A stretch of DNA of 64,000 nucleotides, from assembly GCA_016180425.1 (NCBI GenBank), contig JACPBF010000002.1, positions 1 to 64,000 on the forward strand, read 5' to 3'. A program made the position numbers and the translations under genes. The stretch is from Elusimicrobiota bacterium (GTDB taxonomy: Bacteria > Elusimicrobiota > Elusimicrobia > 2-02-FULL-39-32). How positions within the stretch are numbered: the first letter of the stretch is position 1; every line of letters begins with the position of its first letter. This document shows positions 38,200 through 58,524 of this stretch, piece after piece. The notes beneath the pieces are model-generated. The model searched no databases and was not told the origin of the DNA. It saw only the letters and a program-made list of their open reading frames with translations.

Positions 38200-38272
38200 T
38201 GGGCTGTCCGAGAATCGAACTCGGAACCTAGCGATTAAGAGTCGCTTGCTCTGCCAATTGAGCTAACAGCCC
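38200..38272 (-). tRNA. tRNA-Lys (anticodon CTT)
   Basis: 73 nt, no encoded CCA. Acceptor GGGCTGT pairs with ACAGCCC; D stem GCTC/GAGC; anticodon stem AGCGA/TCGCT with loop CTCTTAA, anticodon CTT; T stem CCGAG/CTCGG with TTCGATT loop; discriminator A. The 5' half is also the left attachment site of the island and encodes the last codons of the integrase. Confidence 0.95.
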
Positions 38273-39349
38273 GCTCGTCGATAAACTTGCAATAACCGGT
38301 AAAATGAAGGTGTGCTGTGTCCTAAATTGTGTCCCAAAATCCAGCTTTTTCACCGCCTGGTGCCGGTAACTGGGCGATAAATGCGCATAGATTTCCGTGG
38401 TCTTTACGCTGGAATGCCCCAACAAATCCCGCACAGTTAAAAGATCCGCGCCGCTCATCACCAAGTGGCTTGCAAAGGTATGCCGCAAATCGTGAATACG
38501 GCACTTTTCGATTTCCGCTTTTTTGCGATACGCTTGAAACTTGCGCTCTATCCTTCTTATTAAGGTAGGAGTATTATTCCCATCATGGAAGATGTATCCA
38601 TCTCTTGGGTTCCCCGCCTCTTTATTCATTTGCCACAGCATTCGTTCTAAATCCGGATGCATAGGAATCTCTCGCATCTCATTATCTTTAGGCGCCCATT
38701 CATGATCGGTTTGCAATATGATAACTTTCCGCCCCCAATTAATTTGGCCCCACTTTAAATGTAAAAATTCTCCTAACCTTAATCCCGTACAAATCATAGT
38801 ATAAAACATTCTCCACCAGCGAATGGGCATGACCTTACTCAATTTTTCGATTTCCTCTTTGCTTAAAAATCTGGGAAGTTTTTTTAGTTGTTTTAATTGT
38901 TTAACGCCGGCAATTTGCCTTTGATCCATAAGTCCCCACTCGACCGCTTTATGAAAACATGCTTTCAGATGGCGCAGTTCTATATTTACGGTTGTGGGAC
39001 TTACTTCTTTTAACCGATGCGCCTTCCATCCTTCTAGTCTTTCGCGGTTAACATCGCCCGTAGTATGCGGCTGAGCGAAGTTAGCAAACAGCTGAATCGC
39101 TTTTGAATCTAATACATACGTGCGAATTCTTTTTTCAACTTTGCTATAGGCCAGATATTTTTCAATGAACTTTTGCCAAGAGTATTTTTCAACAGGCAGT
39201 CCAAAACTTTTCCGCGCAAGCTGAATTTCCAAATGCGCTCTATACTCTGCCGCAGTTTTTTTATCCCTGCAAACCGCTTTTCGAACCGGTTTGCCGTTGG
39301 AGTAGTACTTTACATACCAGCTCTTCCCGCGTTTAAATAAACTAGCCAT
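38228..39349 (-). CDS. Tyrosine recombinase (island integrase)
   Basis: Phage-type integrase of 373 residues with an N-terminal arm-binding AP2-like part ([21 protein letters not shown]), a SAM-like core-binding domain and a C-terminal catalytic domain. The catalytic residues are in [13 protein letters not shown] (Arg), [11 protein letters not shown] (His-x-x-Arg), and [14 protein letters not shown] (His, Tyr). The last 14 codons are read through the 5' half of tRNA-Lys and the TAG stop lies in the tRNA anticodon stem. Reading across the right junction instead, as in an excised circle, would extend the frame by 14 residues. Confidence 0.93.
38232..38273. repeat. Island attachment site, left (42-bp direct repeat)
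   Basis: Exact 42-base match to 55949-55990 in the same orientation. It covers the tRNA-Lys 5' end through the anticodon loop plus one flanking base. The 3' half of the tRNA is unique, so crossover happened in the 5' half or anticodon loop and the functional tRNA is kept at this end. Confidence 0.9.
38316..38334 (-). repeat. Integrase arm-like site, copy D (GGACACA-N5-GGACACA)
   Basis: Two GGACACA heptamers 12 bases apart on the minus strand, 43 bases from the left attachment core and inside the integrase 3' coding region. Three further copies in the same orientation lie at 55789, 56070 and 59704. Confidence 0.5.
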
Positions 39350-39421: not shown

Positions 39422-39658
39422 TTATTTTACCGGAATCATTACATCCGGAATTCTGTTCTGCCTTCCCGAGGTAGAACGTTTGTTAAGCCAACTATCCAAA
39501 TCCTTTTTTCGGTAACGAACCATTCTTTGGCCTATACGCACGTGCGGAATAAATCCACTTGATGTCCACCTACGGATCGTGATTACGGACACCTTCATCC
39601 ATTCCGCTATTTCTTCGGCTAATAATAGGTCATCAATCTCTTCGTTCACCTTAACCAC
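39422..39658 (-). CDS. Excisionase-like HTH protein
   Basis: About 78 residues with a MerR/HTH_17 fold: LLAEEIAEWMKVSVITIRRW, then IPHVRIGQRMVRYRKKDLDSWL, as in excisionases and recombination directionality factors. The start is ambiguous. There is no ATG; a TTG (39667) and GTGs at 39658 and 39649 all fall inside a GGTTAAGG repeat, whose AAGG also serves as the ribosome site. I chose 39658 on spacing; 39649 is equally possible. 72 bases upstream of the integrase. Confidence 0.8.
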   Translation of the reverse strand: MVKVNEEIDDLLLAEEIAEWMKVSVITIRRWTSSGFIPHVRIGQRMVRYRKKDLDSWLNKRSTSGRQNRIPDVMIPVK

Positions 39659-39873
39659 CTTAACCAACCTTAACCAGCTAAAAATTCTTTAAAATGTTTA
39701 TTATTTAAATATTTTTAAAATTGGTTAAGATAGATCATACTTTTCTAAATCTTTTACTATAATCCCCGGGGTAAAACTTTTGAAAACACCTTAACTACCT
39801 TAACCATAATGGTATTTGTAGTCGATAAAAGCGCGGTTAAGGTCGCGTAAAAGGTTGGTTAAGATGGTTAAGG
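39649..39873. repeat. Array of nine GGTTAAGG-type repeats
   Basis: Copies of CCTTAACCA or its inverse at 39649, 39658, 39668, 39723 (inverted), 39789, 39798, 39835 (inverted), 39856 (inverted) and 39866 (inverted). The first three overlap the start of the excisionase gene. The layout (clustered direct copies facing inverted copies) looks like binding sites for the HTH protein or iterons of a replication/excision control region. Confidence 0.7.
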
Positions 39874-39994: not shown

Positions 39995-40123
39995 TAAAAA
40001 AGGAAGAAGGCTGGCAACCTTTTAATTGCCAATCTTCTTCCTCCTTTTTATGACTGACCGCGCCGTTCTTCTCAGCGCTTACTGCATTACTGCATGCTCA
40101 GACCCGAGCATTTGCTTCAATTA
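39995..40123 (-). ncRNA. Candidate structured RNA with terminator, next to the RT operon
   Basis: On the minus strand, following a promoter-like sequence, lie in order: a perfect 6-bp hairpin with arms ATGCTC/GAGCAT (40094-40111), a tandem ATGCAGTA repeat, a GCGC/GCGC stem, and a strong hairpin (arms 40001-40017 and 40026-40042, 15 pairs with a 2x2 bulge) followed by TTTTTT, a textbook intrinsic terminator. It is GC-richer than its surroundings. It may be a free RNA of about 125 nt or simply the 3' end of the operon. Beyond it, up to 40344, I see no gene. Confidence 0.4.
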
Positions 40124-40129
40124 GATATA

Positions 40130-40158
40130 TTTCTAGCAGATGAGAAAAAGTTTGTCAA
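40130..40158 (-). promoter_or_regulatory. Possible promoter of the structured RNA
   Basis: TTGACA (40153-40158) and TAGAAA (40130-40135) are 17 bases apart on the minus strand. The -35 is perfect and the -10 matches four of six positions. Confidence 0.35.
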
Positions 40159-40344: not shown

Positions 40345-41103
40345 TTAAAGAACCTGCTCTACCGAATCACGATACAAACAGTAGTCACAGTCGGGAGCAG
40401 CATTGGGAACCGTTTCTGACATCAAACATTTGTAAGCACCCATAACAGCTGGTTCCACCCATGAATCATTCCCTTCGTAGGGGATTAGCTTGACATCAAA
40501 TTCTAGTTTTCCATCAAACGATTCCTTACTTGTATCTCCGTTACAATAAACAAAATAGCCGGTCTTCGAAACCTTAAAACCGTTCTTCCGAAAAAGCCAC
40601 TGATATATCTCAATCTGGCGCTTATAGGCAATTTGCCAATCCGCGTCCAGATTTACCTCTTCCTCTTTCGAAGTTGCCTTGTAATCTGCAATCAGTAACT
40701 CCCCTTTTCGGTTCACCCAAATGTCATCAATACCGCCAGAAATCTGAAGGTTGGTAGCTGGCTGCAAATATGAGATTCCTCGACGCATCGCATCCCGCCA
40801 TTCCTCCAACTTTTCATGCTGAAAAGGAACCGCATCAATTCCATACTGGGTCATTAGTGGATGGGGTGTTTGTGCGGCTCGGTGAGCATCAAATTCTTTT
40901 TTGAGGAGTATATCTACGGCAGAGTTCAGGCTAAAAGGGAATCCGGGTGGACGGTCTACTCCAAGCCTGCGGTCGATATAAAAACAACGTGGACATTCCA
41001 AAAACATCGAAAGTCTCGTTCTGCTTAACTTGAACGGTGATGTGCTTTTGGGATCAAAAATATTCTGCTTTCTTTTTCCTCGATAATATTTAGACATATT
41101 CAA
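40345..41103 (-). CDS. Cas4/RecB-like PD-(D/E)XK nuclease with probable Fe-S cluster
   Basis: 252 residues. GGIDDIWV (near 123-130), LLIADYKAT (near 137-145) and KRQIEIYQWL supply the acidic, D-x-K and glutamine motifs of RecB-family nucleases. Cysteine pairs CPRC (37-40) and CDYC (239-242) sit at the two ends as in Cas4/AddB iron-sulfur nucleases. No CRISPR repeats or other cas genes are present. It is the last gene of the RT operon, 39 bases after the nitrilase, and probably degrades or trims DNA for that system (inference). Confidence 0.82.
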   Translation of the reverse strand: MNMSKYYRGKRKQNIFDPKSTSPFKLSRTRLSMFLECPRCFYIDRRLGVDRPPGFPFSLNSAVDILLKKEFDAHRAAQTPHPLMTQYGIDAVPFQHEKLEEWRDAMRRGISYLQPATNLQISGGIDDIWVNRKGELLIADYKATSKEEEVNLDADWQIAYKRQIEIYQWLFRKNGFKVSKTGYFVYCNGDTSKESFDGKLEFDVKLIPYEGNDSWVEPAVMGAYKCLMSETVPNAAPDCDYCLYRDSVEQVL

Positions 41104-41142
41104 ACCTCATTTCTTCAAAAAGTGATAAATAATCCTCACCTA

Positions 41143-42015
41143 TCAACTAAACACTCCTGGAGGTCGTGCTTTAAATTTTGGTTCCTTATAAACGTACTCG
41201 GCAGATTCTCCTTTCTTAGCTCGTTCAAGATCATCTACAGGTAATGCTACAGTTTGAAATGTAAATAAATCCCTACCCTCATGTCTATAAATAGTTCTCA
41301 TTTTGGGATGATAATAAGGGGCAACGGCAACAGAACCACCAAAATGTCCCGTATTGCATACCACCACATTGCAATAAACTGTTCTTGTTATGGTTTCAGC
41401 GATATGATAGAAAGAATCAATATCTTTATTGTATGCTAAAACAAATAGGTGATGAATTCTATTTCTGTACATTATATATCGTTCAACATCCATAAAATCA
41501 TAACAGATACACACCGCAAAACGACCATAAGTTTCTGTATCAAATAACCACAATCTTGAATCTCCCTCAAATTTCCACTTGTTTTTTCCCTGTTCCAATT
41601 TTTTTATTTCTCCGGGAGATCCGTATGTTTTTCCAAAATAAAACTCTCTTGCACCTCTCGAACACACTTTTTTAGGCCACTTTTGAGGAATGAATACAAC
41701 TGCTTGATTCATAACTACTTTTCGAGCATAATCTTTCTTATAATCAATTCCTGCAATAATAATTGATCCGATTTTGCAGCTCAATTTTTTTAAATCCCCA
41801 ATATAACCTCTCGGTAGAGAGAGTTCCGGCATAAGAATTATCTCTGGTTTATTAGGACCCCGAGACAGTGATCTTAATCCTGTCTTTACCTGTTTCCAAA
41901 CATATGTTTCTTCATTTGGAGCAATTGTAGGATTATTCCTCCAAGCTACACGATCATCTAAGGAAGTTTGTATAATCCCAACTCTTAAATATTTTTCAAG
42001 ACTTCGTTTAGTCAA
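41143..42015 (-). CDS. Stand-alone nitrilase-family hydrolase of the RT system
   Basis: 290 residues with a complete Glu-Lys-Cys triad: E64 in LMPELSLP, K129 in FYFGKTYGS and C171 in CICYDFMD. It begins 6 bases after the reverse transcriptase ends, so the two are translated from one message. Class 1 defence-associated RTs (DRT type 1, UG1) carry a nitrilase domain fused to the RT; here it is a separate gene. Substrate unknown. Confidence 0.85.
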
Positions 42016-42021
42016 ATCTAA

Positions 42022-45000
42022 TTACTCCTCTTCATTTTCAGCTATTAAAATATTTTTCTTTAACTGACTTATTCTCACAGGCGTTAATTGTCTCGGTAAA
42101 TTTTCTTGTACAGATACTTGATGCTTTTCCAATTTTTTCATAGTTATTTCCAGCTCTTTCTCAAGATCATCTATAGAGGCAATTATTGGTGGATCATCAT
42201 TCATATCATCAGGAGTGTAATTTGTAAATAGTTCTTTCTGCCATGTTTTAATACTAAGATTTTCTCTAACTCGCGGTAATAGACATGATTCTATGACTAT
42301 TTCAGTCCATGATGAACATGCCGTTTCTTGCAAGAGTCTTCTTACGATATGCTCCCATGCTCTACGATGACCTTTAGGATTCCATGCTGCAGGCAATTTA
42401 TAATTGTGCAAAACAAGACCTAATAGGACTAACCCAAGCCCCAGGATAGGTGAAAATTCTTTATTATCTTTTTCAGTATTTGTGAAAATGGGTGTATAAC
42501 GTACATCCAAAATTGGATTTTTTGATAATTGAATCTCAGATTTCATCATTTCTTTCCATTTTTCCCAAGACAAATTCATTTCTTTGAAATTAATCCATTC
42601 AGCTGGAATCCAATAGTTGGCAGGATTGATGTTCCATCGTTTTTCCATATTGGGAATACTTTTTGTATATAATGAGCAAACCTTTCTTGTGAGATTAATA
42701 GCAGTCCATTCACTCAATCTAGGATCGAATAATTGATTATTGAGTTTCAGATTATTAAGAAAATCGATCCATTCGTAAAGATTAACGTAACCTTTCCTTT
42801 GTCCCGTCAAATTTGGAAATATATGTTCGAGATACGGCAAATTATATTTTGATAATTTTTCAATTTTTGCAGCACTCATATTTCTTACATATTCATATAG
42901 TAAACCTTCGTCATTAGTTTCCAGAAAATGGGCATTTCTATCTGTTAGTGACTTGTAAAACCGATTTACATCAGACAGATTATTTGGATATTTTTTGAGG
43001 AGGGGCCAAGTTAATAATGATTTGAGTTTAAGCTTATTCATCACCTTATACCACACAACAGTTGGACTATGTTGAACAGAAAACGCTACTTTTTGTTCCG
43101 CAAACCATGCCCATATTGATAAATCATATTCTGATTCTTTCCCAATCCAATCTTCGCATTTATCAAAGTCTAAATAGTTAAATATTTTTGCACGATCACA
43201 AATAATTTTAATGTTATTTTGTTTAGGAAATGTATTCTGATTTATATCTTTTAAAACCAGTACTACAATCCCAAGAGTACATTCAAATATTTGTTTTGAA
43301 ACAACTTCATAGTATTTTCCATTCTTTTCTGAGTACAAAGCGTGTAAACCGGGGGAATTGAGCAAGCCCAATATAAAATCAATAGATGCATTTCTATGTT
43401 GGGTCAATAAAGACTTATCAGTTATATTTCGCACACATGAACAGAATTGCTTGGCGATCGTTTCCAAAATATGGCTTCTGTAAAAATAATAAGATTCAAT
43501 ATTTTTCTCTTTAATCTGATTTAATTTATCAAAAATGGGATCAATCTCGGAAAATCCAGTATTCCTGCAAAACTCAATAAGTCTCGACCACACTCTTATC
43601 TTTTCGGGATAATCTTCTAAGGTTTTCAATAACAATGCAAAAGTGCGCTTTTTTTCTTTTCTTTCTTCGTCGGTATTCTTTTTCAGCAAAGCGCTCTCTC
43701 TTTTTCTTAAGTCGATAAGTTCTTTTTCTATTGTGTTAATTAACTTTGTAATTTCGGACATCTTTTTACTATTTCTTTTTAAACCCTTCTTACTCTCATC
43801 AAGAGACTCTTTCTCTTGCTCCTTCTGTTGAATCCTATGCGTAAGTTCATATATTTCTGTAGCGCTGTAATGTGGAAATCTAATTGGGGCTAAACGTGCA
43901 ATTTTTGATGCCGCAAAAGATATCCTTGTATCAACCCTCAACTCATGTCCAGGTATGTTTACTAAGAGCAGATGTTCTAAATTCTCTAAAAGTTGCTCTT
44001 GCTCTTTCTCATCTAAAAGTTCAAATTCAACATCGTTGATTGCTGAGACCAGAGCCAAAGTTTTAGTCATTAGTGGTGTAGGAAATTTAGGATCTAGGCA
44101 AGACTGATCACGTGCTTCATTTTCAAGCTTTTTTGTTTCGTCCGACATAGCACTGTCTCGATTAATAATATAATTCTTAAGTTTTTCGGGTTCATATTTT
44201 TCATCGTTTATTACTACGTTTGGCTGGTATTGCATCAACAATTTTTTGTAGTAATCTATCCATTCAACTAATTTTTCAAAACTTGGTGCCAAGATAGTGT
44301 GATCATCCACATAGCGAAAATGTGCAACTTGATTCTTTTTAGCATTTTTTTCTACCTCGCTATCAATTCCCATCATAGCAATGTTTGAAAGAAACCCAGA
44401 AACGAAAAGTCCAGTAGGCAAACCATATAGTTGTCCCCGATTTAAACTATAATTTAGTAGAAGGCGTTCTTTATCAATAAAAATCAAATTTAATTCATTT
44501 TTTGTAAATCCGGTAAGGTCTATGGGAAATGTTAATAAGCTTTTTACTAAATCACCTATTTTGGGATTTTGTTTTACTCCCAAGTATTTTTCAATATTTT
44601 CTTCCACTGAAGATAAAGAGACACTAGGATAGAATCTTTTCAAATCCAAACCTGCCCAATAAACACGGTCAGCTTTTTTATCCCAATAATCCGCCATTAA
44701 ATACTGCAATTTCATTCTTGGATCAGTTAGTTGTTCTTCTCTCTCTAAAATGCGTTTATCGCTTTCATTCAATTCAATATATTTATGGTATTTAGGCTTG
44801 GTCATTTGACGTGATGTTAGATATACTTGCCGTCTATAAAGTGGCCAGCTTTGATTAAACTTCCTATACAAATGTCCCGATGTATTCCGATACCAACCGA
44901 CTTTTAGATCATCTTTATCATCCGCATCCTTTGTTTCATACCACACCGGCCTATAGAGTCGGTAACTATAGCTCCAAGGCGGCATTTTATAATCTAAAAA

Positions 45001-45315
45001 CGGTCCGACAATGTTCACAAATGCAATCCAAGCAACTTGATCTCTAACGGATATATAAAACCATTGACGTAACTCCGGTTCTTGTTGTTCTTTGATTTTC
45101 TTAGGATAGAGAATAGGCCTTAAAGGAGTTATACAATACTTGTTATTTCGAATATCATTTGCAATAGACTCCAATTCAAAATTCAAATTACCCTCAAAGC
45201 GAGCTAATTCACGAAGATCTACCCATGAATCCCCATAAAGAAACATGCGCAGCGCCTTATTCCATGCCCAATAAAGATTATCAGCTGAGGTTATTCGTGT
45301 AATAAAATCAATCAT
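42022..45315 (-). CDS. Large defence-type reverse transcriptase
   Basis: 1097 residues. The RT core is in the first 380: motif A GLDLKRFYPSVS (D224), motif B GLPTGLFVSGFLSN (298-311), motif C FRYVDDHTI (D337, D338), and upstream RDQVAWIAF. All catalytic aspartates are intact. About 700 residues follow, helical and partly coiled coil (460-530, Lys/Glu-rich), with no domain that I recognise. It lacks group II maturase and X/HNH domains and no retron msr-msd is seen. With a nitrilase downstream it fits the unknown-group/Abi RTs. Its start overlaps the primase gene by 8 bases. Confidence 0.85.
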   Translation of the reverse strand: MIDFITRITSADNLYWAWNKALRMFLYGDSWVDLRELARFEGNLNFELESIANDIRNNKYCITPLRPILYPKKIKEQQEPELRQWFYISVRDQVAWIAFVNIVGPFLDYKMPPWSYSYRLYRPVWYETKDADDKDDLKVGWYRNTSGHLYRKFNQSWPLYRRQVYLTSRQMTKPKYHKYIELNESDKRILEREEQLTDPRMKLQYLMADYWDKKADRVYWAGLDLKRFYPSVSLSSVEENIEKYLGVKQNPKIGDLVKSLLTFPIDLTGFTKNELNLIFIDKERLLLNYSLNRGQLYGLPTGLFVSGFLSNIAMMGIDSEVEKNAKKNQVAHFRYVDDHTILAPSFEKLVEWIDYYKKLLMQYQPNVVINDEKYEPEKLKNYIINRDSAMSDETKKLENEARDQSCLDPKFPTPLMTKTLALVSAINDVEFELLDEKEQEQLLENLEHLLLVNIPGHELRVDTRISFAASKIARLAPIRFPHYSATEIYELTHRIQQKEQEKESLDESKKGLKRNSKKMSEITKLINTIEKELIDLRKRESALLKKNTDEERKEKKRTFALLLKTLEDYPEKIRVWSRLIEFCRNTGFSEIDPIFDKLNQIKEKNIESYYFYRSHILETIAKQFCSCVRNITDKSLLTQHRNASIDFILGLLNSPGLHALYSEKNGKYYEVVSKQIFECTLGIVVLVLKDINQNTFPKQNNIKIICDRAKIFNYLDFDKCEDWIGKESEYDLSIWAWFAEQKVAFSVQHSPTVVWYKVMNKLKLKSLLTWPLLKKYPNNLSDVNRFYKSLTDRNAHFLETNDEGLLYEYVRNMSAAKIEKLSKYNLPYLEHIFPNLTGQRKGYVNLYEWIDFLNNLKLNNQLFDPRLSEWTAINLTRKVCSLYTKSIPNMEKRWNINPANYWIPAEWINFKEMNLSWEKWKEMMKSEIQLSKNPILDVRYTPIFTNTEKDNKEFSPILGLGLVLLGLVLHNYKLPAAWNPKGHRRAWEHIVRRLLQETACSSWTEIVIESCLLPRVRENLSIKTWQKELFTNYTPDDMNDDPPIIASIDDLEKELEITMKKLEKHQVSVQENLPRQLTPVRISQLKKNILIAENEEE

Positions 45316-46324
45316 TTTTATTTTTTTGATAAAACTCGGATAAATCCTTCACATCCTGAATTCGAACTGTTTGAACAATTTTTCCTTTATCCAGAAATGC
45401 TTTTTTTATCTTCCTAGCAAAATCACTTCCAGCGGCATCGTTGTCTGGAACAATTACTACATCAAATGGGATAAGCATTTCTACCCATTGTTCGTTGAAG
45501 GAATGTGCACCCAAAACACCAACTGCAGAATACCCCATTTCATTTGCAGCAAGCACATCAGGAATACCTTCACAAATTAGCAGTAAATTACCTTCCTTTA
45601 ATTTATCAATAACATTGGTATTGTACAATGGTTTTGATATCCCCTTTAACCCAAGATATTTGGGTCCAATCTCGCTCAATCTCCGGCCCTGTATGTACAC
45701 GACATCATTGTTCTTATAGAATGGGAATAAAATGATGTAGTCCCACCATATAAATTTTTCAAGTATTTGTTCTCCTTTCTCAACAGTTCTTATTAAACCA
45801 ACTTTTCTTAAAATATCAATCCCATACTGACTTACTAATTTACTAAAAATATTTTTCGGATATTCAATATCTTTAATCCGGAACTTTTCAATTGTCTCAT
45901 CTGAAAAACCTCGCTCTCGCAAATACGATCTTCCTCGATTACTCAACTTTAGCTCATTAATCAATGAGGTATAAACTTTTGGATCTATTTCTGCTTTGGA
46001 TTGAACATTAGCCTTTCGACTAATCTCGATCTTTTTATATTGATTTAACCACTCATTATTATGTTGACCAAGGAATTTGTCCTTTAGCCATAAGATTGCA
46101 TTTCTATTGCTCATATTCTCAACATTCATAACTAAATCAATACTTGAACCCCCAGTGCCACACCCAAAGCAATAAAAAAGATTTTTTGATGGAGTAAAAC
46201 TGAGACTTGCTGTTTGTTTATCATGCCCATTGAAACACATAGCTTTGTTTCGTTTTACCTCTATGCCAAGAAGAGTAGCCACATCAATAATAGGTATTTC
46301 TTTAATCTGATCTATTATATCCAT
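45308..46324 (-). CDS. DnaG-like primase fragment: CHC2 zinc finger plus TOPRIM
   Basis: 338 residues. The N-terminus has a CHC2 zinc-binding site C30-x3-H34-x17-C52-x2-C55 (CFNGHDKQ, FYCFGCGTGG). The later TOPRIM domain has the glutamate of LLICEGIPDVLAANEMG and DND of VIVPDNDAAGSDFA. There is no helicase or DnaB-binding domain, and it is much shorter than cellular DnaG. Overlapping the RT by 8 bases, it is the first gene of the four-gene operon and may prime or process DNA for the RT. No clear ribosome site. Confidence 0.85.
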   Translation of the reverse strand: MDIIDQIKEIPIIDVATLLGIEVKRNKAMCFNGHDKQTASLSFTPSKNLFYCFGCGTGGSSIDLVMNVENMSNRNAILWLKDKFLGQHNNEWLNQYKKIEISRKANVQSKAEIDPKVYTSLINELKLSNRGRSYLRERGFSDETIEKFRIKDIEYPKNIFSKLVSQYGIDILRKVGLIRTVEKGEQILEKFIWWDYIILFPFYKNNDVVYIQGRRLSEIGPKYLGLKGISKPLYNTNVIDKLKEGNLLLICEGIPDVLAANEMGYSAVGVLGAHSFNEQWVEMLIPFDVVIVPDNDAAGSDFARKIKKAFLDKGKIVQTVRIQDVKDLSEFYQKNKND

Positions 46325-46424: not shown

Positions 46425-46919
46425 TTAGGTAGTACGCTTTGGAATACGCTTTGATTCTGACACTGTAGCTGAAAGCTTTTTTAGCTCGGATATTGGAAAA
46501 GACAAAAGAGTTTCGCCAATCCCTTTTCTATGCTTATAATTTCCAAAGATTATTTGCCATGGTCCGTTAAAGACTTCTTCGTAACTACCATCATTGAATA
46601 GCTTGAATCCCAAGTAGTAGTCTGGAATTGTCTTGAATATCAGAGGGTCATTAAACGTTGCTTTTACTTGCACTTTCCTACTATCAGAAGTCTTGCCATC
46701 ATGACGCGCTTGTTGAACTGAATAAATCTCAATATCCTATTCCAGAGCGGCAATAACCTCAACTATATCGCCTACCTGTCGCCCATCAATAGTAAAGGCC
46801 TTCCCCGGAAACGCATCGCTCAGCTGATTGATCCCATTAAAGATATGCGTGAGTGCTATTGAAATTATTTTTTTCTTCTCACCATTAGTGTTTAATGATT
46901 GTTCTTTATTGGTGTTCAT
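46425..46919 (-). pseudogene. DUF6998-like third gene of the R-M-like unit, split by an in-frame TAG
   Basis: An ATG overlapping the methylase stop (ATGA) opens a frame with FTIDGRQVGDIVEVIAAL, then TAG at 46737-46739, then DIEIYSVQQARHDGKT, VQVKAT and LGFKLFNDGSYEEVFNGPW in the same frame to a stop at 46425. From memory this is the DUF6998 pattern (DGR-VGDIGE-IAA-YD-E, GHDA-G-VQIKAT), where the interrupted position is normally an aromatic or histidine, so one base change (TAT/TAC to TAG) explains it. The E...D...IKAT spacing is nuclease-like. Everything after the stop is well preserved, so the break is recent. Confidence 0.75.
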
Positions 46920-49900
46920 TTTCTGCCTTCGATGATTTTGATTTCGGGAATTTCCTGCATTTTTGCCATAGCAATACTCACCGGATGTTTGGGATCGGAA
47001 AGTTCCTTATACACTATATCAATGGTTTTCAGTTTCTTCTCATCGCTCCAGTCGTCTTTCAGTTCAGGCAGATTGTTGAGATGTTTCAGCACTTCGGCAT
47101 CGTCGCTTTCGATTTTTTTGGGAAAGTAGAGCTCGTAAACCATGGCATCGATGAGGCGTTCAAGAAATATGAAATCTAAACCGCTTTGTGAGTTCTTCCT
47201 AATAAAAAGGACATAATCGACTGTTTTTTCAATTAACCTTTGAATTTTAATTGAGACCACAGGAATTGGAAATGTTCTTAGTTCTTTTACTTTAAATTGA
47301 GGGAATATTTTTCTCGTTAACTTTCCAAATTCTTTTGCAAACCATGAACTCATCAAAGAAGAATTTAAAATTCCCAATATGTACTTTATCGTATACCTCT
47401 CATCATCTATAACTTTTATAATCATGCTGTTGTTGTCATTGATGACATGTTCTTGGATATAACAGGCATGTATGCAATAAGGTAATTGTGAAGGAATTTG
47501 CCTCACTAAAATTCTTTTATCAATAAACAGTTCTGCTTCTCGCGGCCTCGAAAGATTTTTGCCATACTTTATGAATTGTCCACTCCATCCCAAACCATAA
47601 CGACTTACATCAACTCCATCTAAATATTTTATCCAATTATTGTTTTCTTTCCTGTCGCTGTGATAAACTCTTTTCTCTTTCATTTCTTCTGTACATATAG
47701 GAGTTCCCTCTCCCACTGTGTATGCTTGGACACCATTTTTAACGATTGCAATTTTTTCAAGAATTTTTACTTCGTTCTCAAAAGGCCATTGTTTAGAATC
47801 TGACAAATTCTCCGAATTGGAAATGATGTATTCTTTGCTGTTTAAATAATAATTTAAATCTTTGATATGTTTAAGAATAGGATTTTTTCCAACCCACTCA
47901 AGATACTTTAAAGTTCTACTACCACCTTTTTTAAACCCAATAACAACGGTATCTACACTTGCACTTTCAAATACATTTGCATAGTTCTGTAAAACAAGAA
48001 TATCTCCAGTATAAGTTAGCAAGAATTTTCTTAGATCAGAATTTGTGTTTAAGGTTAACCAGTTATTTGGAGTAATAAAAAATAGTAACCCTGAAGTGTC
48101 CTTCAAAAGATGGTAACTCCTTTCAATAAAAAGAATGTACAAATTAATCTTGAATTGAGTTAAAGTGTACAATGACTTGTAAATTTTCTTTTCCTCCGTA
48201 GAAATATTCTCTCTTGAGAATACATATGGAGGATTCCCAATCGCAATATCAAAGCAACTCGAAACTCCGAACATCCATTCTGGATCAAAGAAAGGACTGG
48301 ATGCATTCTGGTCATAGGGATCCCAGCCAGCAAGTTGGCGTGCGGTTTCATTATCCCATCCGCTATCAATCAGAATATCTCCCATTTTCTTCCGTAGCGA
48401 CTGGTCATCTTCCCGTAGCTTCCGTTTGGTTGCCGGAGTTTTGGCAGAAAAGAGGCGGTGCCGAACATCTTTCAATTTTTCTTCCAGTTCATTGACTGCT
48501 TTGTTATCAAATAGGCTACCCGCGTAATCTCTTGCTTTAGGGTTTTCAATGCCAATCAGAGTATTTGCGGCCACAAATTTGGTTTCAAGGTTTGGTAGGG
48601 GTCGGATGCCAAAATTGTCTTTGGTTTTATCCGTTTTCTGGTCAACGATGAGAGATATAAAGAAACGGAGCTTGCTGATTTGTGTTGCTATCGGTTGGAT
48701 GTCCACACCGTAGATGCAGTTTTCTATCAGATAGAGCTTGCGTCCGTAGTCCAGTTCGTTACCGGCAAAAGCAGTTTCAATATCAGCTATGAGGTTATCC
48801 CGGATTTCAGGATCATCAATTGCCCGCGCTTTATCAATTTGCCGTTCCTTCCAGAGTTTATTCTGTGGGTCGAGTTTGTGCAAAATATGCACCAGTTTAT
48901 GTAGTATTCCCATCGGGAATGCTCCACTCCCGCAGGCAGGGTCAAGGATTTTACAGGTGTCTATGGCATTGATTAAAACCGCCGTTTGTTTTTCGTCAAA
49001 TAAATGTTCTTTTTCGTTGTAGCCGATAAGAAATTCAAGCCCCGCTTGAGCGTCTTCTGTATTCATACCTGCTTCAGTTTCTAATTTCTGCTTGAGATAC
49101 GCCTTGATGCTTTCATCCACCATGTAATTGACGATTTCGCGCGGTGTATAAAATGAACCGGTTTGCTTGCGGGCGGTGGTTTTAGTTTCCGGGTTGTAGC
49201 TGGCAAGAAGATTTTCAAACACCCTGCCCAGAAGTTCCGGGTCAAGGGCGACTTCTTCTTCAATGGGGGTATTCTCTGTAATGGTAAATTTATATGCCTT
49301 TAGGATATTAATAAGTCCGTTGACAGTGACATCTTTCTGTTTTTTATCGTCCAGCTCCTCACTCAAATCGGTATGTTCCCCAGTCCCGAAAAAGATGTAA
49401 TCAGGAACAGATAGAACATTATCCTTTCTATCGGAGAATCCATCCTCATAGATGATGACATCCCCGCCTTTTTTGCCTTTCTTATCAGGGTCGGGACTAT
49501 CAAGGCACTCGAAAAGTCCGCCGTTCATAAAAGGGACAACATCTTCCACGAGTTTTAAAAACGCCTTTGGATTTTTAAAATAGTTTTCATACCGCATCAT
49601 GTTCGTAACATTCATCTGCTGACCCTCTTTGCGGAATTCCCTTTTCCCTACGGTCTGGTTGAGGGTCGCGAAAAACAGATTTTGCAGGATGGCACGATAG
49701 TATTTGCTCCCCTGCGTTCTATGGTCAAAACTCTTTTTCTTTCGCGGTTCAAAGCCGTCAATAAGATGATCTTTAATATAGTTTTCATCAAACAGTTCGT
49801 CCGGTATAAGGTTCTTCTCTTTAATAAACCATACAAAGAGTATCCGTGTTAAGAGGCGGATCAGATTTTTAGCATTATGTTCGCGGACCTTATCTTCCCG

Positions 49901-50671
49901 TTGATACAAACCCTTTTTGTCCGCTTCCAGAGAGGCCCCGGGGAAAACGACCTCTTTCATTGCCCAGAAATACCAGTTGGAAAGTTCTTTATAAAATTTT
50001 TTGTTGAGTTCTTTGGTATCGAGAGTTTTCTGCCAGGCGTTATGGAGTTCAACAAAATTTGAAAACTTGTGCATATGAGAGAGTTCTTCAAACGAAAGGT
50101 CAAACAAGATTTCAACGTGAGCACGGTGGGGGTTTTCAACAGAAATATCTTTGATGAGGGTCACTTTTTCAAGAACATCCTTGCTTTCGTCCCGTTTGTG
50201 TAGCCGGCGGTTAATGACAGAAAGTGTTAAGCAGTTGCCATGCCTAAACAGTATCATTACAGGCATCGGGAAAAGCTTGTTTACTTCGCGGGCAATTTGG
50301 CTTAGTTTGGTTCGGCTATACTGTTCGCTAGAAAGCTGGATGGCAAAGAAAAGGTAGGATTCAATGACGGTATTGTCAACGCGGCCAGCGTCGAACAGTG
50401 AGTTCTGGTTATCGATCTCACTTTTTGAAATTTGAAACAGCAGGTCAACATATTTCCAATCAGAAGTTAGTGCTTTTTCTTCATTGAACTGGCTGCTACC
50501 ATCAATGTAATTTTCCTTGAAACAGGCGTAGGTCTGTTTTTCAAGAGGGGATTGTCTTGTAGTGTTGTAACCAAGAGTTTTGAAAAGCTTGATCGCTTTT
50601 TCGGTTAGATTAGCATTCTTTAATTCTTTTAGGGCAGATTGAATATTTTGTTTGGACTCGATAGCTGTCAT
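46916..50671 (-). CDS. Large adenine-specific DNA methyltransferase (Eco57I/BREX-like class)
   Basis: 1251 residues. SAM motif I DPACGSGAFPMGILHKL is near 575 and the catalytic NPPY in IAIGNPPYVFSREN near 810, as in N6-adenine methylases of the Eco57I/type IIG group. A YNPETKTTARKQTGSFYTPREIVNYMV block precedes motif I. The N-terminal 250 residues and the C-terminal target-recognition region (from about 950) are divergent. 3 bases after the helicase gene. Modifies host DNA or marks targets for the partner; whether it has nuclease activity of its own is not visible. Confidence 0.85.
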   Translation of the reverse strand: MTAIESKQNIQSALKELKNANLTEKAIKLFKTLGYNTTRQSPLEKQTYACFKENYIDGSSQFNEEKALTSDWKYVDLLFQISKSEIDNQNSLFDAGRVDNTVIESYLFFAIQLSSEQYSRTKLSQIAREVNKLFPMPVMILFRHGNCLTLSVINRRLHKRDESKDVLEKVTLIKDISVENPHRAHVEILFDLSFEELSHMHKFSNFVELHNAWQKTLDTKELNKKFYKELSNWYFWAMKEVVFPGASLEADKKGLYQREDKVREHNAKNLIRLLTRILFVWFIKEKNLIPDELFDENYIKDHLIDGFEPRKKKSFDHRTQGSKYYRAILQNLFFATLNQTVGKREFRKEGQQMNVTNMMRYENYFKNPKAFLKLVEDVVPFMNGGLFECLDSPDPDKKGKKGGDVIIYEDGFSDRKDNVLSVPDYIFFGTGEHTDLSEELDDKKQKDVTVNGLINILKAYKFTITENTPIEEEVALDPELLGRVFENLLASYNPETKTTARKQTGSFYTPREIVNYMVDESIKAYLKQKLETEAGMNTEDAQAGLEFLIGYNEKEHLFDEKQTAVLINAIDTCKILDPACGSGAFPMGILHKLVHILHKLDPQNKLWKERQIDKARAIDDPEIRDNLIADIETAFAGNELDYGRKLYLIENCIYGVDIQPIATQISKLRFFISLIVDQKTDKTKDNFGIRPLPNLETKFVAANTLIGIENPKARDYAGSLFDNKAVNELEEKLKDVRHRLFSAKTPATKRKLREDDQSLRKKMGDILIDSGWDNETARQLAGWDPYDQNASSPFFDPEWMFGVSSCFDIAIGNPPYVFSRENISTEEKKIYKSLYTLTQFKINLYILFIERSYHLLKDTSGLLFFITPNNWLTLNTNSDLRKFLLTYTGDILVLQNYANVFESASVDTVVIGFKKGGSRTLKYLEWVGKNPILKHIKDLNYYLNSKEYIISNSENLSDSKQWPFENEVKILEKIAIVKNGVQAYTVGEGTPICTEEMKEKRVYHSDRKENNNWIKYLDGVDVSRYGLGWSGQFIKYGKNLSRPREAELFIDKRILVRQIPSQLPYCIHACYIQEHVINDNNSMIIKVIDDERYTIKYILGILNSSLMSSWFAKEFGKLTRKIFPQFKVKELRTFPIPVVSIKIQRLIEKTVDYVLFIRKNSQSGLDFIFLERLIDAMVYELYFPKKIESDDAEVLKHLNNLPELKDDWSDEKKLKTIDIVYKELSDPKHPVSIAMAKMQEIPEIKIIEGRK

Positions 50672-50674
50672 TTA

Positions 50675-53600
50675 CTATCTCACTATTAGCCATGTGATTA
50701 GTTCAAAACTCTCCAAGTCATCCACCTGTTTTGTTTTGGGGATCACGAGGGCGCTCCGATCGGAAGTCAGCTTTTGGCTTCCACGCTTTTTAAAGACATG
50801 AACAATTTCTGAAACTGCCTTTTTGAGCAATTCAGAGTATTTTTCCATTTTTTCGCCATTGTTTGTTTCTTCATTAAAAAGCTCGCATAGTCTTTCATAG
50901 GGCTCTTTGCGCCCTTGGCTAATGAGCCGAAATATTTCCAAAATCTGTTTTGCGTTCGTGTAATTGTACCGAACCGTATTGTCGTCACGGATATAAACGA
51001 GAAAATAGGGTTGAAGCGGGTTTACCTCTTCGTTGCCATCCGTATCACCTTTTTGCCTCAGACAGTAAATAACGCCTGGTTTGATGATCTCTTTTTCGGT
51101 TGCCGTAAAATCATGATTAGTAATGAGGCTTGCATGTTCACCTGATGGAGAAGGAACAACCGCATATAAACCGAATGGAGCATTTTCCAGCTTTTGCCTG
51201 TTGCTTTCTAAGTAGGATAAAAGTTCTATACGAAAATCATCAAGAGTAAAATCGGTCAAGGAAACGGATTCATTCATTTCCTCAAGATCAAGGACTTCAT
51301 CACGGAGCTTTTTAAGTTGTTGGTTGCGGTATTTCAGATCATCGGAAATAAGTTCCTCAATCTGTTCTGTGTTAAGTATATTATCCTCGCCTGTGGCGGT
51401 AACATCCACCAGCGCCATACGCGCTTCAACCCGTTCTTTCAGATTGATGTAGTTATCGAGATCCTTGGTGGGCCAAAAATTTACTAGCTGAATAGCATTA
51501 TTTTTGCTTCCTAACCTGTCAATGCGGCCGAAACGCTGGATAATTCGCACCGGATTCCAGTGAATATCATAGTTAATTAAATAATCACAGTCCTGAAGGT
51601 TTTGTCCTTCGCTGATACAGTCCGTCGCTATAAGAATATCAATTTGTCCCTTTAGTGGCGCTATATTCAGTTTTGAACGGTTTTTCGACAGGGGAGAGAA
51701 GTTGGTCAGAATGCTGTCATAATCATTTTTTCCGAAGGTTGTTTGAGAGTATGAACCAGAGACAAGAGCGGATTCAAGTTTTAATTCATCTTTAATCCAT
51801 TCTTTTAAATTCTTATAAAGATATTCAGCGGTGTCCGCAAAGGCGGTAAAAACTACAACTTTTTTATTGTTATTATTAAGCTGATTATTCAATTTTTTCT
51901 GAATAACCTGTTTCAACTCATGTAGTTTAGCATCCCGTTCAGGAGTTACTGCGATGGCATTGTTATAAAGATCAACTAGAGCTTCTTTGTCTGATTTAAG
52001 ATCTTCGAGCCATCCTTTAGCACCTTTAAGATTTAGGTCAGCAAGATCAAACTTCAGTTTTTTTCCCACCTGCCATGCGTCATGATCATCGGAGGATTCT
52101 TCCAATTCTTCTTCGTCTGGTTCCAGTGATTCAAGGGTTTCTTCCTGGTTTTTTGCTTTGCCGGAAAGAAAACTGTTAATTTTATCTTCGAGGTTTTCAA
52201 TCTTTTTAATGGTTCTGTCCAAGGAAATTTCGAACGATTCAATCGAGCTCTCAAGCCGTTTTAAATAGTTAACTTTCATCATGCCGATCAGGAAGTGTTC
52301 ACGGTCACTTTGTTTAAAGGATAGCACTCCCGATGTTGCAGCTAATTTTTCGTATTTGTCTTTCATCTCATCCTTAACATATGCGGAAGGGTTAAAGACA
52401 GACAATTTGTACCTCAGAATTTCTTTGTTCAATCGGTCATAAGTGGGAAATCTGTTTTTCAGATCAATGGTCGGATATACAGAAACGGGTTTGAGTCGTT
52501 CCGGGAACTTTCCTATTTCCTCAATGTTATAGAAAGATTTAATATGCTTCCGACTGCGCGCGATGGTTAACTCGTCCAGCAGTTTAAAGAAAGCTGAATC
52601 AAGTCGATCAAGTAACTGTTTTAGGTTCCTTAATGGATTTTTCTTGGGATCGGCCCAATTCGTAAAATGAGTTTGAGCATTTTTTAGCGTAAAAGCAATA
52701 TCCTTGATACCGCTTGTTAATAGTAAAGCATCGTCTTTGCCTTCAGTTATCAGGGCTATCTGATTCCTCAAATCTCTAAGAGAATTATTCACGGGTGTTG
52801 CCGAAAGCATAAGCACTCTTGTTTTCACTCCAGATTTTATGACTTTTTCCATAAGCCATTTTGCCCGGTTCATTTTGATAGTGCCATCATCTTTAATTCT
52901 TTCCAAAGGGTTACCCCTGAAATTGTGCGATTCGTCTATGACAATAAGATCATACGCTCCCCAGTTGAAATTATCCATCTCAATACCGTTTGCATCTGAT
53001 TTTCCACTGATTCTTCCCATATCGGTATGATAAAGAACCGTATAATTAAATCGATCTTTGACGAAAGGATTTAGAGTATGACCTTGGCTGGCTTGATAAA
53101 TCGTCCAGTTCCCCGACAGTTTTTTGGGGCAAATAACAAGAACCCTCTGATTGAGAAGCTCAAAATACTTTATTACTGCGAGTCCTTCATAAGTTTTGCC
53201 AAGACCCACGCTATCGGCAATTACACAGCCATTATGTTTCAGGATTTTGTTGATAGCACCCTTTACTCCATCCTTTTGAAAGTCATAGAGAGTATTCCAA
53301 ATTTCACTTTCAAAAAATCCGGTTCTTTCATTAAGAAGTCCACCTTTCTTCTGATCATCAAGAAAATCTTTAAATATGTGATAAAGAGTTTTAAAATAAA
53401 TGAACTCCGGTTCATTCTCAGCATATAATTGTGTAATATATTTCAGTACATCCTCTTTTACATCTTGAACAAGCCCAGTATTGTCATTCCACAAAGAATC
53501 AAACCATTGTTTTAAGTCCTGGCGGTCTCGATCACTATCGATAACCAAATTTAGTTCAATATTCTTGCTTCCACCCATGCCAAGCCCGTTGACAGTGAAG

Positions 53601-54022
53601 TTGGAACTGCCGATAATTGCTTTTTCCACACCGCTTGGTTGTTCGATATGGTACATTTTGCCATGCAGAAAATTGGGTTTTACCATAGATTTAATTTCAG
53701 CTTTATTTTTCAGCCATTCGTAGCAATCACGCGCCACCGACTTTTGTTGAAGACGGTTTGCAATGGGAATTACAAGGGTATCGTCTTCAATTTTAAACTC
53801 GCGCTGGTTTTTCTTTTCTGGGTCAAGCACTTTTATAAAGGTGGGCTCACCAAATAGAAAGCGAAGTTTGCTGATAGGATCGAGATTTTTTTTTAAGGAA
53901 TGATACGCATAAATAGTAAAGTACGCTGACACAATCGATAGTTTAGAATCATTTATAATTGCAGACTGCAAGAAATTTCCTACAGTTCCAAAATTATGAT
54001 TGTCTCGGATCGATGTGCTCAT
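50675..54022 (-). CDS. SNF2-family helicase with N-terminal phospholipase D-like nuclease domain
   Basis: 1115 residues. An HKD-type motif FLHGKMYH (H120, K122) followed by GSSNFT marks a PLD nuclease in the first 170 residues. The ATPase has ADSVGLGKT (Walker A), VIDESHNF (DEAH-like), MLSATPVNN (III) and RIIQRFGRIDRLGS (VI). A charged coiled-coil insertion lies at about 600-700. With the methylase it forms a restriction-like pair: translocating nuclease plus modification enzyme. The 139 bases upstream (54023-54161) show no clear promoter. Confidence 0.87.
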   Translation of the reverse strand: MSTSIRDNHNFGTVGNFLQSAIINDSKLSIVSAYFTIYAYHSLKKNLDPISKLRFLFGEPTFIKVLDPEKKNQREFKIEDDTLVIPIANRLQQKSVARDCYEWLKNKAEIKSMVKPNFLHGKMYHIEQPSGVEKAIIGSSNFTVNGLGMGGSKNIELNLVIDSDRDRQDLKQWFDSLWNDNTGLVQDVKEDVLKYITQLYAENEPEFIYFKTLYHIFKDFLDDQKKGGLLNERTGFFESEIWNTLYDFQKDGVKGAINKILKHNGCVIADSVGLGKTYEGLAVIKYFELLNQRVLVICPKKLSGNWTIYQASQGHTLNPFVKDRFNYTVLYHTDMGRISGKSDANGIEMDNFNWGAYDLIVIDESHNFRGNPLERIKDDGTIKMNRAKWLMEKVIKSGVKTRVLMLSATPVNNSLRDLRNQIALITEGKDDALLLTSGIKDIAFTLKNAQTHFTNWADPKKNPLRNLKQLLDRLDSAFFKLLDELTIARSRKHIKSFYNIEEIGKFPERLKPVSVYPTIDLKNRFPTYDRLNKEILRYKLSVFNPSAYVKDEMKDKYEKLAATSGVLSFKQSDREHFLIGMMKVNYLKRLESSIESFEISLDRTIKKIENLEDKINSFLSGKAKNQEETLESLEPDEEELEESSDDHDAWQVGKKLKFDLADLNLKGAKGWLEDLKSDKEALVDLYNNAIAVTPERDAKLHELKQVIQKKLNNQLNNNNKKVVVFTAFADTAEYLYKNLKEWIKDELKLESALVSGSYSQTTFGKNDYDSILTNFSPLSKNRSKLNIAPLKGQIDILIATDCISEGQNLQDCDYLINYDIHWNPVRIIQRFGRIDRLGSKNNAIQLVNFWPTKDLDNYINLKERVEARMALVDVTATGEDNILNTEQIEELISDDLKYRNQQLKKLRDEVLDLEEMNESVSLTDFTLDDFRIELLSYLESNRQKLENAPFGLYAVVPSPSGEHASLITNHDFTATEKEIIKPGVIYCLRQKGDTDGNEEVNPLQPYFLVYIRDDNTVRYNYTNAKQILEIFRLISQGRKEPYERLCELFNEETNNGEKMEKYSELLKKAVSEIVHVFKKRGSQKLTSDRSALVIPKTKQVDDLESFELITWLIVR

Positions 54023-55101: not shown

Positions 55102-55275
55102 TTATCTGCTTAGATGAATTCTATCTTTTGTATGTAATTTTTTCCAAAGTTCGGTCTTTTGTGTATCTTCGTGGATTTTTCTTAACCGTTCTTCCATAGA
55201 GAATTTTGCATATTTTTTGTTTAATTGTTCCCGCATCTTACGCATGTATTCAACTGATTTAAATCTCTTCTCCAT
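55102..55275 (-). CDS. Small partner of PIN protein 1 (57 aa)
   Basis: The ATG overlaps the last 17 bases of the PIN gene and has AAGGAGG upstream. Lys/Glu-rich helical protein with EYMRKMREQLNKKY and MEERLRKIHED. Equivalent to the products at 57173-57346 and 58525-58686, all coupled to a PIN gene in the same way. Likely antitoxin or regulator, by position; no DNA-binding fold is recognised. Confidence 0.7.
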   Translation of the reverse strand: MEKRFKSVEYMRKMREQLNKKYAKFSMEERLRKIHEDTQKTELWKKLHTKDRIHLSR

Positions 55276-55726
55276 ACAACACCTCCTTGGGAGAATGAAT
55301 GTCTAATAAACGATACCCCTCTTTAACATTAACTCCATTGTAGGCATGAATCCTTCTAATATTTACAATATGTTTGAAATTCCAGCTGACTAAAACATCC
55401 ACATTATGAATCGTTGCAGTTGCAATGTGAAGCGCATCAACCTCTGAGTGGTCCGGAACTGCGCCGGAAGAAATATAGGCTTGGGCAAGAGACTTAGCTT
55501 CCACCGGCAGTGCAATCTGTTCTAAAAATTCATCTGGGATTTGTTCCAAAACGTTTTTAACATGTTCGGGCGCCGGTTCCAATTCCTGAATTGTCAATTC
55601 GGAAATAACAGCAATCATTTTCCCTTGTTTTATTTTTTCAAATAGGGCAATAGAATCTAACTTAAATTCTGGGTCAAAACAGCCCCCAATAACCGAAGTA
55701 TCAATGTATACTCTAAGCTTATGCAT
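55259..55726 (-). CDS. PIN-domain toxin-like RNase 1
   Basis: 155 residues with the PIN acidic set: YIDTSVIGG (D9), TIQELE, HSEVDALHIATA and LVSWNFKH. The C-terminal HSPKEVLYG tail is shared with the two paralogues (SPQEVI, TPEEVI), where the partner gene begins. PIN proteins cut RNA; VapC-like toxin activity is inferred. Lies just inside the right end of the island. Confidence 0.8.
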   Translation of the reverse strand: MHKLRVYIDTSVIGGCFDPEFKLDSIALFEKIKQGKMIAVISELTIQELEPAPEHVKNVLEQIPDEFLEQIALPVEAKSLAQAYISSGAVPDHSEVDALHIATATIHNVDVLVSWNFKHIVNIRRIHAYNGVNVKEGYRLLDIHSPKEVLYGEEI

Positions 55727-55773
55727 GTTCTACTTTTATTATAGCCTCTAATACCTTAGAAATCAATTCATAA

Positions 55774-55831
55774 ACTATACTAGTTGGCTGTGTCCTAAAC
55801 TGTGTCCCATGAAGGGATATTTTGGGATATT
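55774..55831. repeat. 58-base end repeat with arm-like site, copy A
   Basis: About 53 of 58 positions match 59689-59746 in the same orientation. It contains GGACACA-N5-GGACACA (minus strand, 55789-55807), 142 bases from the right attachment core. With copy D at the other side, the excised circle would have one arm-like pair on each side of the core. Confidence 0.65.
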
Positions 55832-55948
55832 TGCTGATCACTTATGATACCTTAAGATTAGTCAAAAATGATGAGCTCTTAGACGGTGAAACCGGATTTT
55901 CTTCAACATCCGACGAAGCTGCGCAAACCTTCAAAAACAGCCAAAATC

Positions 55949-55990
55949 CGATTAAGAGTCGCTTGCTCTGCCAATTGAGCTAACAGCCCG
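55949..55990. repeat. Island attachment site, right (42-bp tRNA-Lys half)
   Basis: Exact copy of 38232-38273. It is a tRNA 5' half without acceptor partner or T arm, so it is not a tRNA gene. The sequence beyond it (55991-56060) should be the original upstream region of tRNA-Lys; TTGTAA and CTTAAT 17 bases apart could be its former promoter. The gap 55727-56108 holds only this and the arm-like sites. Confidence 0.9.
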
Positions 55991-56069
55991 AATGAATTAA
56001 GTTAATGCAGTAAAGATGTTACAAAAAATATATAAGAAGTTCTAGAATCAGATTAAAACAAAACGGAGC

Positions 56070-56088
56070 TGTGTCCTAAAATGTGTCC
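56070..56088 (-). repeat. Arm-like site, copy C
   Basis: GGACACA-N5-GGACACA outside the island, 80 bases beyond the right attachment site. Possible relic of an earlier element at the same locus. Confidence 0.45.
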
Positions 56089-56108
56089 TTCGGTGGGTTT
56101 ATTTTTAG

Positions 56109-56858
56109 CTACACCTTTCCCCATAGATTAGTTTCTAGAAAACGTATTTCCTCAAACGCCAAAATAGCATCTTGAGCCATAAGAAAACATTTCCAAACAA
56201 ATTTATCGCTCATATAAATGATATGGGGATTACCATCTGATTTTGACCAATTAAAATAATCTATCCAGTTTTTATCCTCAATTAATTTTAAAAATCTTAC
56301 CCGCTTATCTTTAGGCCATTCGTAACCGTTGTGAAGGGAAAAATTGCGATAAGTGATTAACGCACCAAGATACTTTAGAAAATCAGCTGGCAATTTAGAT
56401 TCGATTCCCAGCGCGTTTACTAACTGATGTGTACCACGCATAATATTATTGGATGAGTTAATTTGCGAATTTCTATCCAATACTTTACGTGGGTCCCAAA
56501 AATTCATTGGTTCAAGATGCCAACGGTTATGAGAATTAAGTGGTTTACGCGACCGATAGAACACCCTTAAGCATTTGAACTCATGTATAAGAAGGCTTTC
56601 AAAAAAAGAAGCAAGCACCCCAACCATAGCAAGACTACATACAACATCACGAAACTTGGACTCATGCATCATTTCAACATATTCCTCTACATTATGATCT
56701 GTCCAGTTTCCTATAAAAGAAGGTTCCTTTATTTCAGCATTCAGATTATTTCGCCAACTATATATGGAATGTACAAGTCCATGAATTGCAACCAAAGAAT
56801 ATTGGGGATCATAATCCATCGCATCCATCAATTCATTTATTTGAATTTGCTCATCCAT
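56109..56858 (-). CDS. Helical protein with RNxxxH (HEPN-like) motif
   Basis: 249 residues from the ATG at 56858. TYRNFSLHNGYEW near residue 170 fits the RNxxxH motif of HEPN RNases in a mostly helical protein; an SSNNIMRGTHQLVNALG helix precedes it. I reject the longer start at 56900 because those bases form the promoter. The predicted transcription start is about 4 bases before this ATG, so the mRNA would be nearly leaderless. Family otherwise unrecognised; a toxin or abortive-infection role is possible from the motif and the TA-rich surroundings. Confidence 0.55.
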   Translation of the reverse strand: MDEQIQINELMDAMDYDPQYSLVAIHGLVHSIYSWRNNLNAEIKEPSFIGNWTDHNVEEYVEMMHESKFRDVVCSLAMVGVLASFFESLLIHEFKCLRVFYRSRKPLNSHNRWHLEPMNFWDPRKVLDRNSQINSSNNIMRGTHQLVNALGIESKLPADFLKYLGALITYRNFSLHNGYEWPKDKRVRFLKLIEDKNWIDYFNWSKSDGNPHIIYMSDKFVWKCFLMAQDAILAFEEIRFLETNLWGKV

Positions 56859-56868
56859 AGTAGCGATA

Positions 56869-56897
56869 ATCCTACAGCAATCATCGGTCTCTGTCAA
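56869..56897 (-). promoter_or_regulatory. Promoter with operator-like repeat, copy 2
   Basis: TTGACA (56892-56897), 17 bases, TAGGAT (56869-56874). The whole segment resembles copy 1 at 54680-54708 closely, including the GATTATCG block after the -10. Confidence 0.6.
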
Positions 56898-56964
56898 CAA
56901 ACTCTAGCAAGTAATTTGGGTCAATAATAATCAATTTATTTCATAGATTTTGAGAAACGGACGA

Positions 56965-57075
56965 GCCCATCTTGGCAAGTCCAAGCCCATTCCGGATTTT
57001 CTGTTCACGCTTGCGCTGGACATAGTGGTTGGGCGGGAGGAATCCCCCCAAACTTCCCCCCTCAGGGAAAATTTA
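56965..57075 (-). repeat. GC-rich cassette-boundary repeat R2 (short form)
   Basis: Same core as R1 and R3 but without the A/T-rich extension and terminal hairpin; one hairpin arm is altered (GGATT for GGCTT). Lies between the second PIN pair and the HEPN-like gene. Confidence 0.8.
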
Positions 57076-57172
57076 AACAGGTAATATTGATTTTTACAGA
57101 GAGATTTTTAGCGAGATTTAAATATGGGAAAGTGTCGGGCTGCTTGTACAGATAGGGCGTAAAGACTTTATA

Positions 57173-57812: not shown

Positions 57813-57930
57813 TGGAATATAGCTATTATATCACCTCTATTCTAAAAATAACATCAGAACCATAAATAGTCAATCCCAGTTGTTTATCCTGTTGTTCATG
57901 CCAATTTGGCTCTCTTTTTTGAAAATGGCA

Positions 57931-58115: not shown

Positions 58116-58151
58116 AAGGATTTAAGAAAATGTTTTCAGAAAAATATTTGT

Positions 58152-58427: not shown

Positions 58428-58524
58428 ATCTTTATCAAATGGTGAACTATTTTTATGTTTTATTTTATTACCTCCACCACGTAAAAACTAATTCTCGGGC
58501 AGGAGTAATGATCTAAGGATGAAT

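Follow-up and report, generated by a model that had tools for sequence, protein, structure and literature searches.

The window analysed here is a stretch of 64,000 nt from an Elusimicrobiota bacterium (assembly GCA_016180425.1, contig JACPBF010000002.1, positions 1–64,000 of the forward strand). Four open reading frames follow one another on its minus strand, encoding a DnaG-type primase subunit, a reverse transcriptase (RT), a nitrilase and a Cas4/RecB-like nuclease (Table 1). The initial annotation had described these genes as a closely spaced operon with intact catalytic motifs, and both points were confirmed. The primase and RT genes overlap by 8 bases, the RT and nitrilase genes are 6 bases apart and the nitrilase and nuclease genes 39 bases. 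The probable start of the nuclease is ATG 41097, since a 58% identical homologue begins there; measured from this start, the gap to the nitrilase gene is 45 bases. Checked residue by residue, the primase has C30, H34, C52 and C55 (CHCC) together with E252, D294 and D296 of the TOPRIM domain, the RT has D224 (motif A) and YVDD at 335–338, the nitrilase has the catalytic triad E64, K129 and C171, and the nuclease has DYK and four cysteines. The motif residues of the primase, RT and nitrilase are kept in all homologues found and are thus not due to chance.

Table 1. Features of the island and its ends in the window
Feature	Position	Strand	Basis or size
Attachment repeat 1, within tRNA-Lys (38200–38272)	38232–38273		42-bp perfect direct repeat with 55949–55990
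Tyrosine integrase of the island	38228–39349	−	Pfam Phage_integrase, 1.1e-28
HTH_17 (MerR/excisionase-like) protein	39422–39667	−	Pfam HTH_17, 7.5e-12
Cas4/RecB-like PD-(D/E)XK nuclease, neighbour outside the conserved module	40345–41103	−	Pfam PDDEXK_1, 3.2e-12
Stand-alone nitrilase (C–N hydrolase), probable effector	41143–42015	−	290 aa
UG6-group RT	42022–45315	−	1097 aa
DnaG-type primase subunit	45308–46324	−	338 aa
Type IIG restriction-methyltransferase, same island	46916–50671	−	PADLOC REase_MTase_IIG, 7.6e-67
PLD (HKD) + SNF2 helicase, same island	50675–54022	−	PADLOC C3a139 'HKD+Snf2', 1.1e-128
Attachment repeat 2, distal island end	55949–55990		Copy of the tRNA-Lys repeat

The genes had been placed on an integrase-borne island, and the perfect direct repeats and tyrosine integrase bear this out. 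The island is about 17.8 kb long and integrated at tRNA-Lys, into which the integrase gene runs. The restriction-modification gene (type IIG) and the PLD-SNF2 helicase that it also carries make it a defence island. The 13-mer GCTGTGTCCTAAA is found in four copies (38314, 55787, 56068 and 59702) near both island ends; these are possible integrase or excisionase sites. At or beyond the island edge sit three PIN-like genes in a row (155–158 aa) and a ribbon-helix-helix antitoxin-like gene (55259–59626), likely a toxin-antitoxin cluster. A DUF6998 gene (46425–46920, minus strand) is apparently broken by one in-frame TAG, its second half alone being a listed ORF. A strongly folding RNA candidate (39995–40135, minus strand, z = −5.2) lies in the interval that separates the nuclease gene from the HTH/integrase genes; it has a long hairpin and a T-run at its end, and a TTGACA-like promoter just upstream. 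It has no Rfam match. It was set aside as a part of any system, as it lies beyond the nuclease and has no counterpart at the other UG6 loci described below.

Profile matches place the RT clearly in UG6, one of the groups of UG/Abi reverse transcriptases: RT_UG6 of PADLOC matches with E = 3.4e-219 and the next profile with 3e-18. The Drt1a profile gives 1.2e-14, so that by RT profile the protein is not a DRT1. In a small tree with long outgroup branches the window RT and five others form one clade (support 98/99), with UG1, UG5 and unrelated RTs outside it. The Asp of motif A and (Y/F)VDD are present in all six. UG6 and UG1 RTs also align past the RT core (residues 12–482, E = 1.7e-18). The suggested kinship of the RT with the DRT1/UG1 nitrilase systems, as a defence-type UG/Abi enzyme, is upheld. 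Group II intron and retron RTs had been named as the types that would speak against it; both profiles fall far below their cutoffs (39 bits against 300, with no maturase domain in Pfam; retron_St85_RT, 41 bits against 235). The predicted structure of the RT is poor (pLDDT 56). The priming serine of DRT1, S402, is without an invariant serine at the matching UG6 position, and so DRT1 chemistry may not carry over to UG6. Invariant T419 and S424 are nearby, 81–86 residues past the last Asp of YVDD; in DRT1, S402 is 77 past.

Six independent UG6 loci were located in Elusimicrobiota, Bacteroidota and Bacillota: the window, L017 (Praeruminimicrobium), L032 (Bacteroidales), L033 (Proteiniphilum), L034 (Clostridia) and L041 (genome G686). 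These were found through the RT alone, hence the partner genes were not preselected; a joined RT-nitrilase query was used in one genome-contig pattern scan, and both patterns searched were taken from the N-terminus of the RT. At every one of the six, the RT has a DnaG-type primase (about 340–350 aa) that adjoins it, overlaps it or, in L033, is fused to it. The nitrilase follows the RT, or is fused to it (L017), at all five readable loci; the contig of L041 stops after the RT. The order primase-RT-nitrilase is the same in L017, L032, L033 and L034. The primase is thus a true partner of the RT, as first proposed. The accompanying view, that it was added here, does not survive, the primase being constant among the six loci found and joined to the RT in one of them, the nitrilase in another. 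The two fusions are on opposite sides of the RT, suggesting that the three proteins may form one physical complex.

The compared trio proteins are 25–42% identical, with invariant catalytic residues. Identities co-vary between primase and RT (r = 0.70, Mantel/permutation p = 0.011) and between nitrilase and RT (r = 0.84, p = 0.03), a comparison of few loci that may partly mirror host descent. The full UG6 RT is rare; it was present in 2 of 341 genomes from the phylum to which the window belongs (seven further matches, weak or of another RT type, were left out), 2 of 396 from that of L032 and 1 of 399 from that of L034. Family- and order-level genome searches yielded no additional UG6 locus, and neither single-protein RT scans of genome and viral contigs nor a two-row alignment run against viral contigs gave a match. 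On the viral side the primase alignment picked up phage primases, at loci where the RT gave no match, and the one viral match to a six-row alignment looked like an RT of the diversity-generating-retroelement type.

Restriction-modification genes flank four of the five loci with flanks. In L032 (4276–17566) a type I restriction operon surrounds the trio, in the order hsdM, YhcG nuclease, trio, a 281-aa gene, hsdS and hsdR; the PDDEXK gene just upstream of this trio (YhcG family) is unrelated to the window nuclease. Two relatives outside UG6 were also observed. L042 (6948–11052), from the 399-genome sample of the L034 phylum, has a sister RT equally near the UG1 and UG6 profiles, more distant than the UG6 RTs, and a separate nitrilase; it is possibly a further, intermediate RT-nitrilase group. 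There is no primase at L042, thus a primase is not required by every RT-nitrilase pair. A Leptospira plasmid (L055, 1753–5984) encodes an RT-nitrilase whose RT fits no PADLOC group well, with a 3′–5′ exonuclease 11 bases downstream.

The primase matches PADLOC RTasDnaG-like (7.7e-87) and comprises the Pfam domains Zn_ribbon_DnaG, DNAG_N and Toprim_2, that is, the CHC2 zinc-binding domain, the DnaG N-terminal core and TOPRIM. It matches NCBIfam dnaG with E = 1.6e-37, yet reaches 129 bits against a cutoff of 284; the helicase-binding C-terminal domain of DnaG is missing. The same genome encodes a separate, longer DnaG elsewhere (G000:C18). The predicted model (pLDDT 78) has Aquifex DnaG (2au3, E = 3.8e-15) as its best fold match, and all significant matches ahead of TOPRIM nucleases are DnaG-type primases or primase-helicases. 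CHCC and the TOPRIM E/D/D residues are invariant in the six primases.

The nitrilase matches PADLOC RTasNitrilase (2e-101) and also the UG5-nitrilase profile (7e-37). Its sole sequence match in the PDB is the nitrilase domain of DRT1 (9yfd, E = 6e-11). The five nitrilases from UG6 loci all keep E-K-C, and their C-terminal P-(P/A)-(G/A) tail aligns with the DRT1 tail that follows the lid residues (PMC13275509). A single continuous alignment of the L017 fusion protein to the Drt1a profile (214–1260 against 179–1170 of 1176) spans the RT, middle region and nitrilase. DRT1 defence requires the active sites of both RT and nitrilase, and DNA synthesis activates the nitrilase (PMC13275509). Class 3 DRTs are described as having RT and nitrilase or phosphohydrolase in one multidomain protein (PMC13275509); the window genes are separate and only the L017 relative has such a protein. 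By analogy, the trio most likely works like class 3, though it is not filed as a strict member.

On sequence and by analogy with DRT1, we consider it probable that the primase, UG6 RT and nitrilase constitute a three-subunit anti-phage system acting by DRT1-like abortive infection. The RT would, with the help of the primase, make non-genomic DNA. The nitrilase would be controlled by this synthesis, or by phage interference with it, and would then destroy or convert an essential small molecule and so stop the cell. The logic of an RT that gates a nitrilase is borrowed from DRT1, whose RT and nitrilase domains are homologous to those of UG6. The primase may provide a primer, or else a short template of RNA, as a substitute for protein priming or alongside it. 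More tentatively, we suggest that the primase supplies primers or short templates to an immune RT whose DNA switches a separate nitrilase toxin, and that the system is neither protein-primed nor ncRNA-templated.

The initial annotation had assembled all four genes into a DNA-synthesis machine in which the Cas4-like nuclease trims the product. The primase, RT and nitrilase hold as a conserved trio; the nuclease lies outside it. Its position on the same strand 39–45 bases after the nitrilase and its intact motif would suit a trimming role, but it is missing after the nitrilase in all four other readable loci (L017, L032, L033 and L034), and RT homologues thus exist without it. Its closest relatives, 58% identical in genome G327 and 46% identical on a Flagellatimonas plasmid, have no RT alongside. 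The GC3 of the nuclease gene (0.417) is also unlike that of the trio (0.23–0.28; Fisher p = 5e-6), that of the integrase (0.45) being nearer. The four-enzyme machine is for these reasons very improbable, and the nuclease appears to be a generic PD-(D/E)XK neighbour brought in by the island. It was not assigned to the Cas4 family (NCBIfam cas4, 27.7 bits against a curated cutoff of 65). We give as little credence to the idea that the trio serves replication or transposition of the integrative island and not defence. It does sit on a tRNA island with an integrase, and mobile elements often carry primases and nucleases; however, other loci have the trio without an adjacent integrase or tRNA, L032 holds it between hsdM and hsdS/hsdR, and in L017 it is next to housekeeping genes. 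Searches of 50,697 phage and 72,556 plasmid records, as well as viral contigs, returned no UG6 match.

The remaining alternatives concern the role of the primase within a defence system. It is unlikely that the DnaG-like protein is a cleaving TOPRIM effector rather than a primer-maker. RT defence does include TOPRIM effectors (retron-Eco2, PMC13275509) and the 338-aa protein is without the helicase-binding part of DnaG, but it retains the zinc-binding domain and DnaG N-terminal core, and the fold search places primases and primase-helicases before TOPRIM nucleases. Somewhat less doubtful is protein-primed, template-free synthesis by the RT alone, as in DRT1, with the primase only sensing phage DNA or ssDNA or serving as a scaffold for it. 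Class 3 DRT1 and DRT5 do prime on protein (PMC13275509), and T419 or S424 could stand in for S402. Against this, S402 itself is not conserved, and the invariance of the TOPRIM and CHC2 catalytic residues in six loci would be needless for a mere scaffold. An ncRNA-templated scheme, as in DRT2, DRT3 and DRT9, is argued against by L032, where spacers of just 13 bases before and 6 bases after the trio leave no room for an ncRNA gene, and by the region upstream of the window primase, which has no structured RNA (z = −0.3). An Rfam search returned tRNA only. The L032 spacers also speak against a retron msr-msd RNA.

Of the trio model we claim no new type. The statement that this was not a described defence type was too strong, as PADLOC-DB 2.0.0 contains RT_UG6, RTasDnaG-like and RTasNitrilase; the type is already catalogued. 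What merits a test is its conserved primase of the DnaG type. The association of UG6 with DnaG-like and nitrilase genes was reportedly described in the Mestre 2022 classification. The literature searched yielded no functional work on UG6; the group is only classified there (PMC8934634), and the 2026 DRT papers searched for it do not mention it. Defence RTs in the literature read use either a protein or an ncRNA to begin DNA synthesis, and the one studied RT-primase case found is DRT7, with a different primase type. The conservation of a DnaG-type primase as partner, in one lineage even within the RT protein, hints at another possible mode of initiation. As a separate protein, the nitrilase would be an effector easy to assay alone, and the trio would also help to find the substrate of DRT1-type nitrilases.

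Compared with the UG6 group, the window RT, primase and nitrilase are all strong matches to the PADLOC models, and a UG6 RT beside a nitrilase was noted earlier (BBI33370.1, PMC8934634); among the UG6 loci found, only the window has a Cas4-like nuclease beside the trio. Bacterial DnaG shares the zinc-binding, core and TOPRIM domains and the best fold match, but has the helicase-interaction domain that the window primase lacks. The UG5-nitrilase RTs are likewise coupled to a nitrilase, to whose profile the window nitrilase is related; the window RT, however, does not match as a UG5 RT, and a UG5 example (L054) has no primase alongside. DRT1 (UG1, 9yfd) has a homologous RT and a nitrilase with E-K-C, the C-terminal tail and extended RT homology; it differs in that the window nitrilase is a separate gene, S402 is not conserved and a DnaG-type primase, absent from the DRT1 description, is present. 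DRT7 (UG10), an RT-primase/polymerase fusion, also pairs an RT with a primase (PMC13213688). Its primase is of the AE_Prim_S (primase-polymerase) type and fused (PMC8934634), whereas the window primase, missing the AEP-type domain and so not a DRT7 member, is of the CHC2/TOPRIM DnaG type and is accompanied by a nitrilase.
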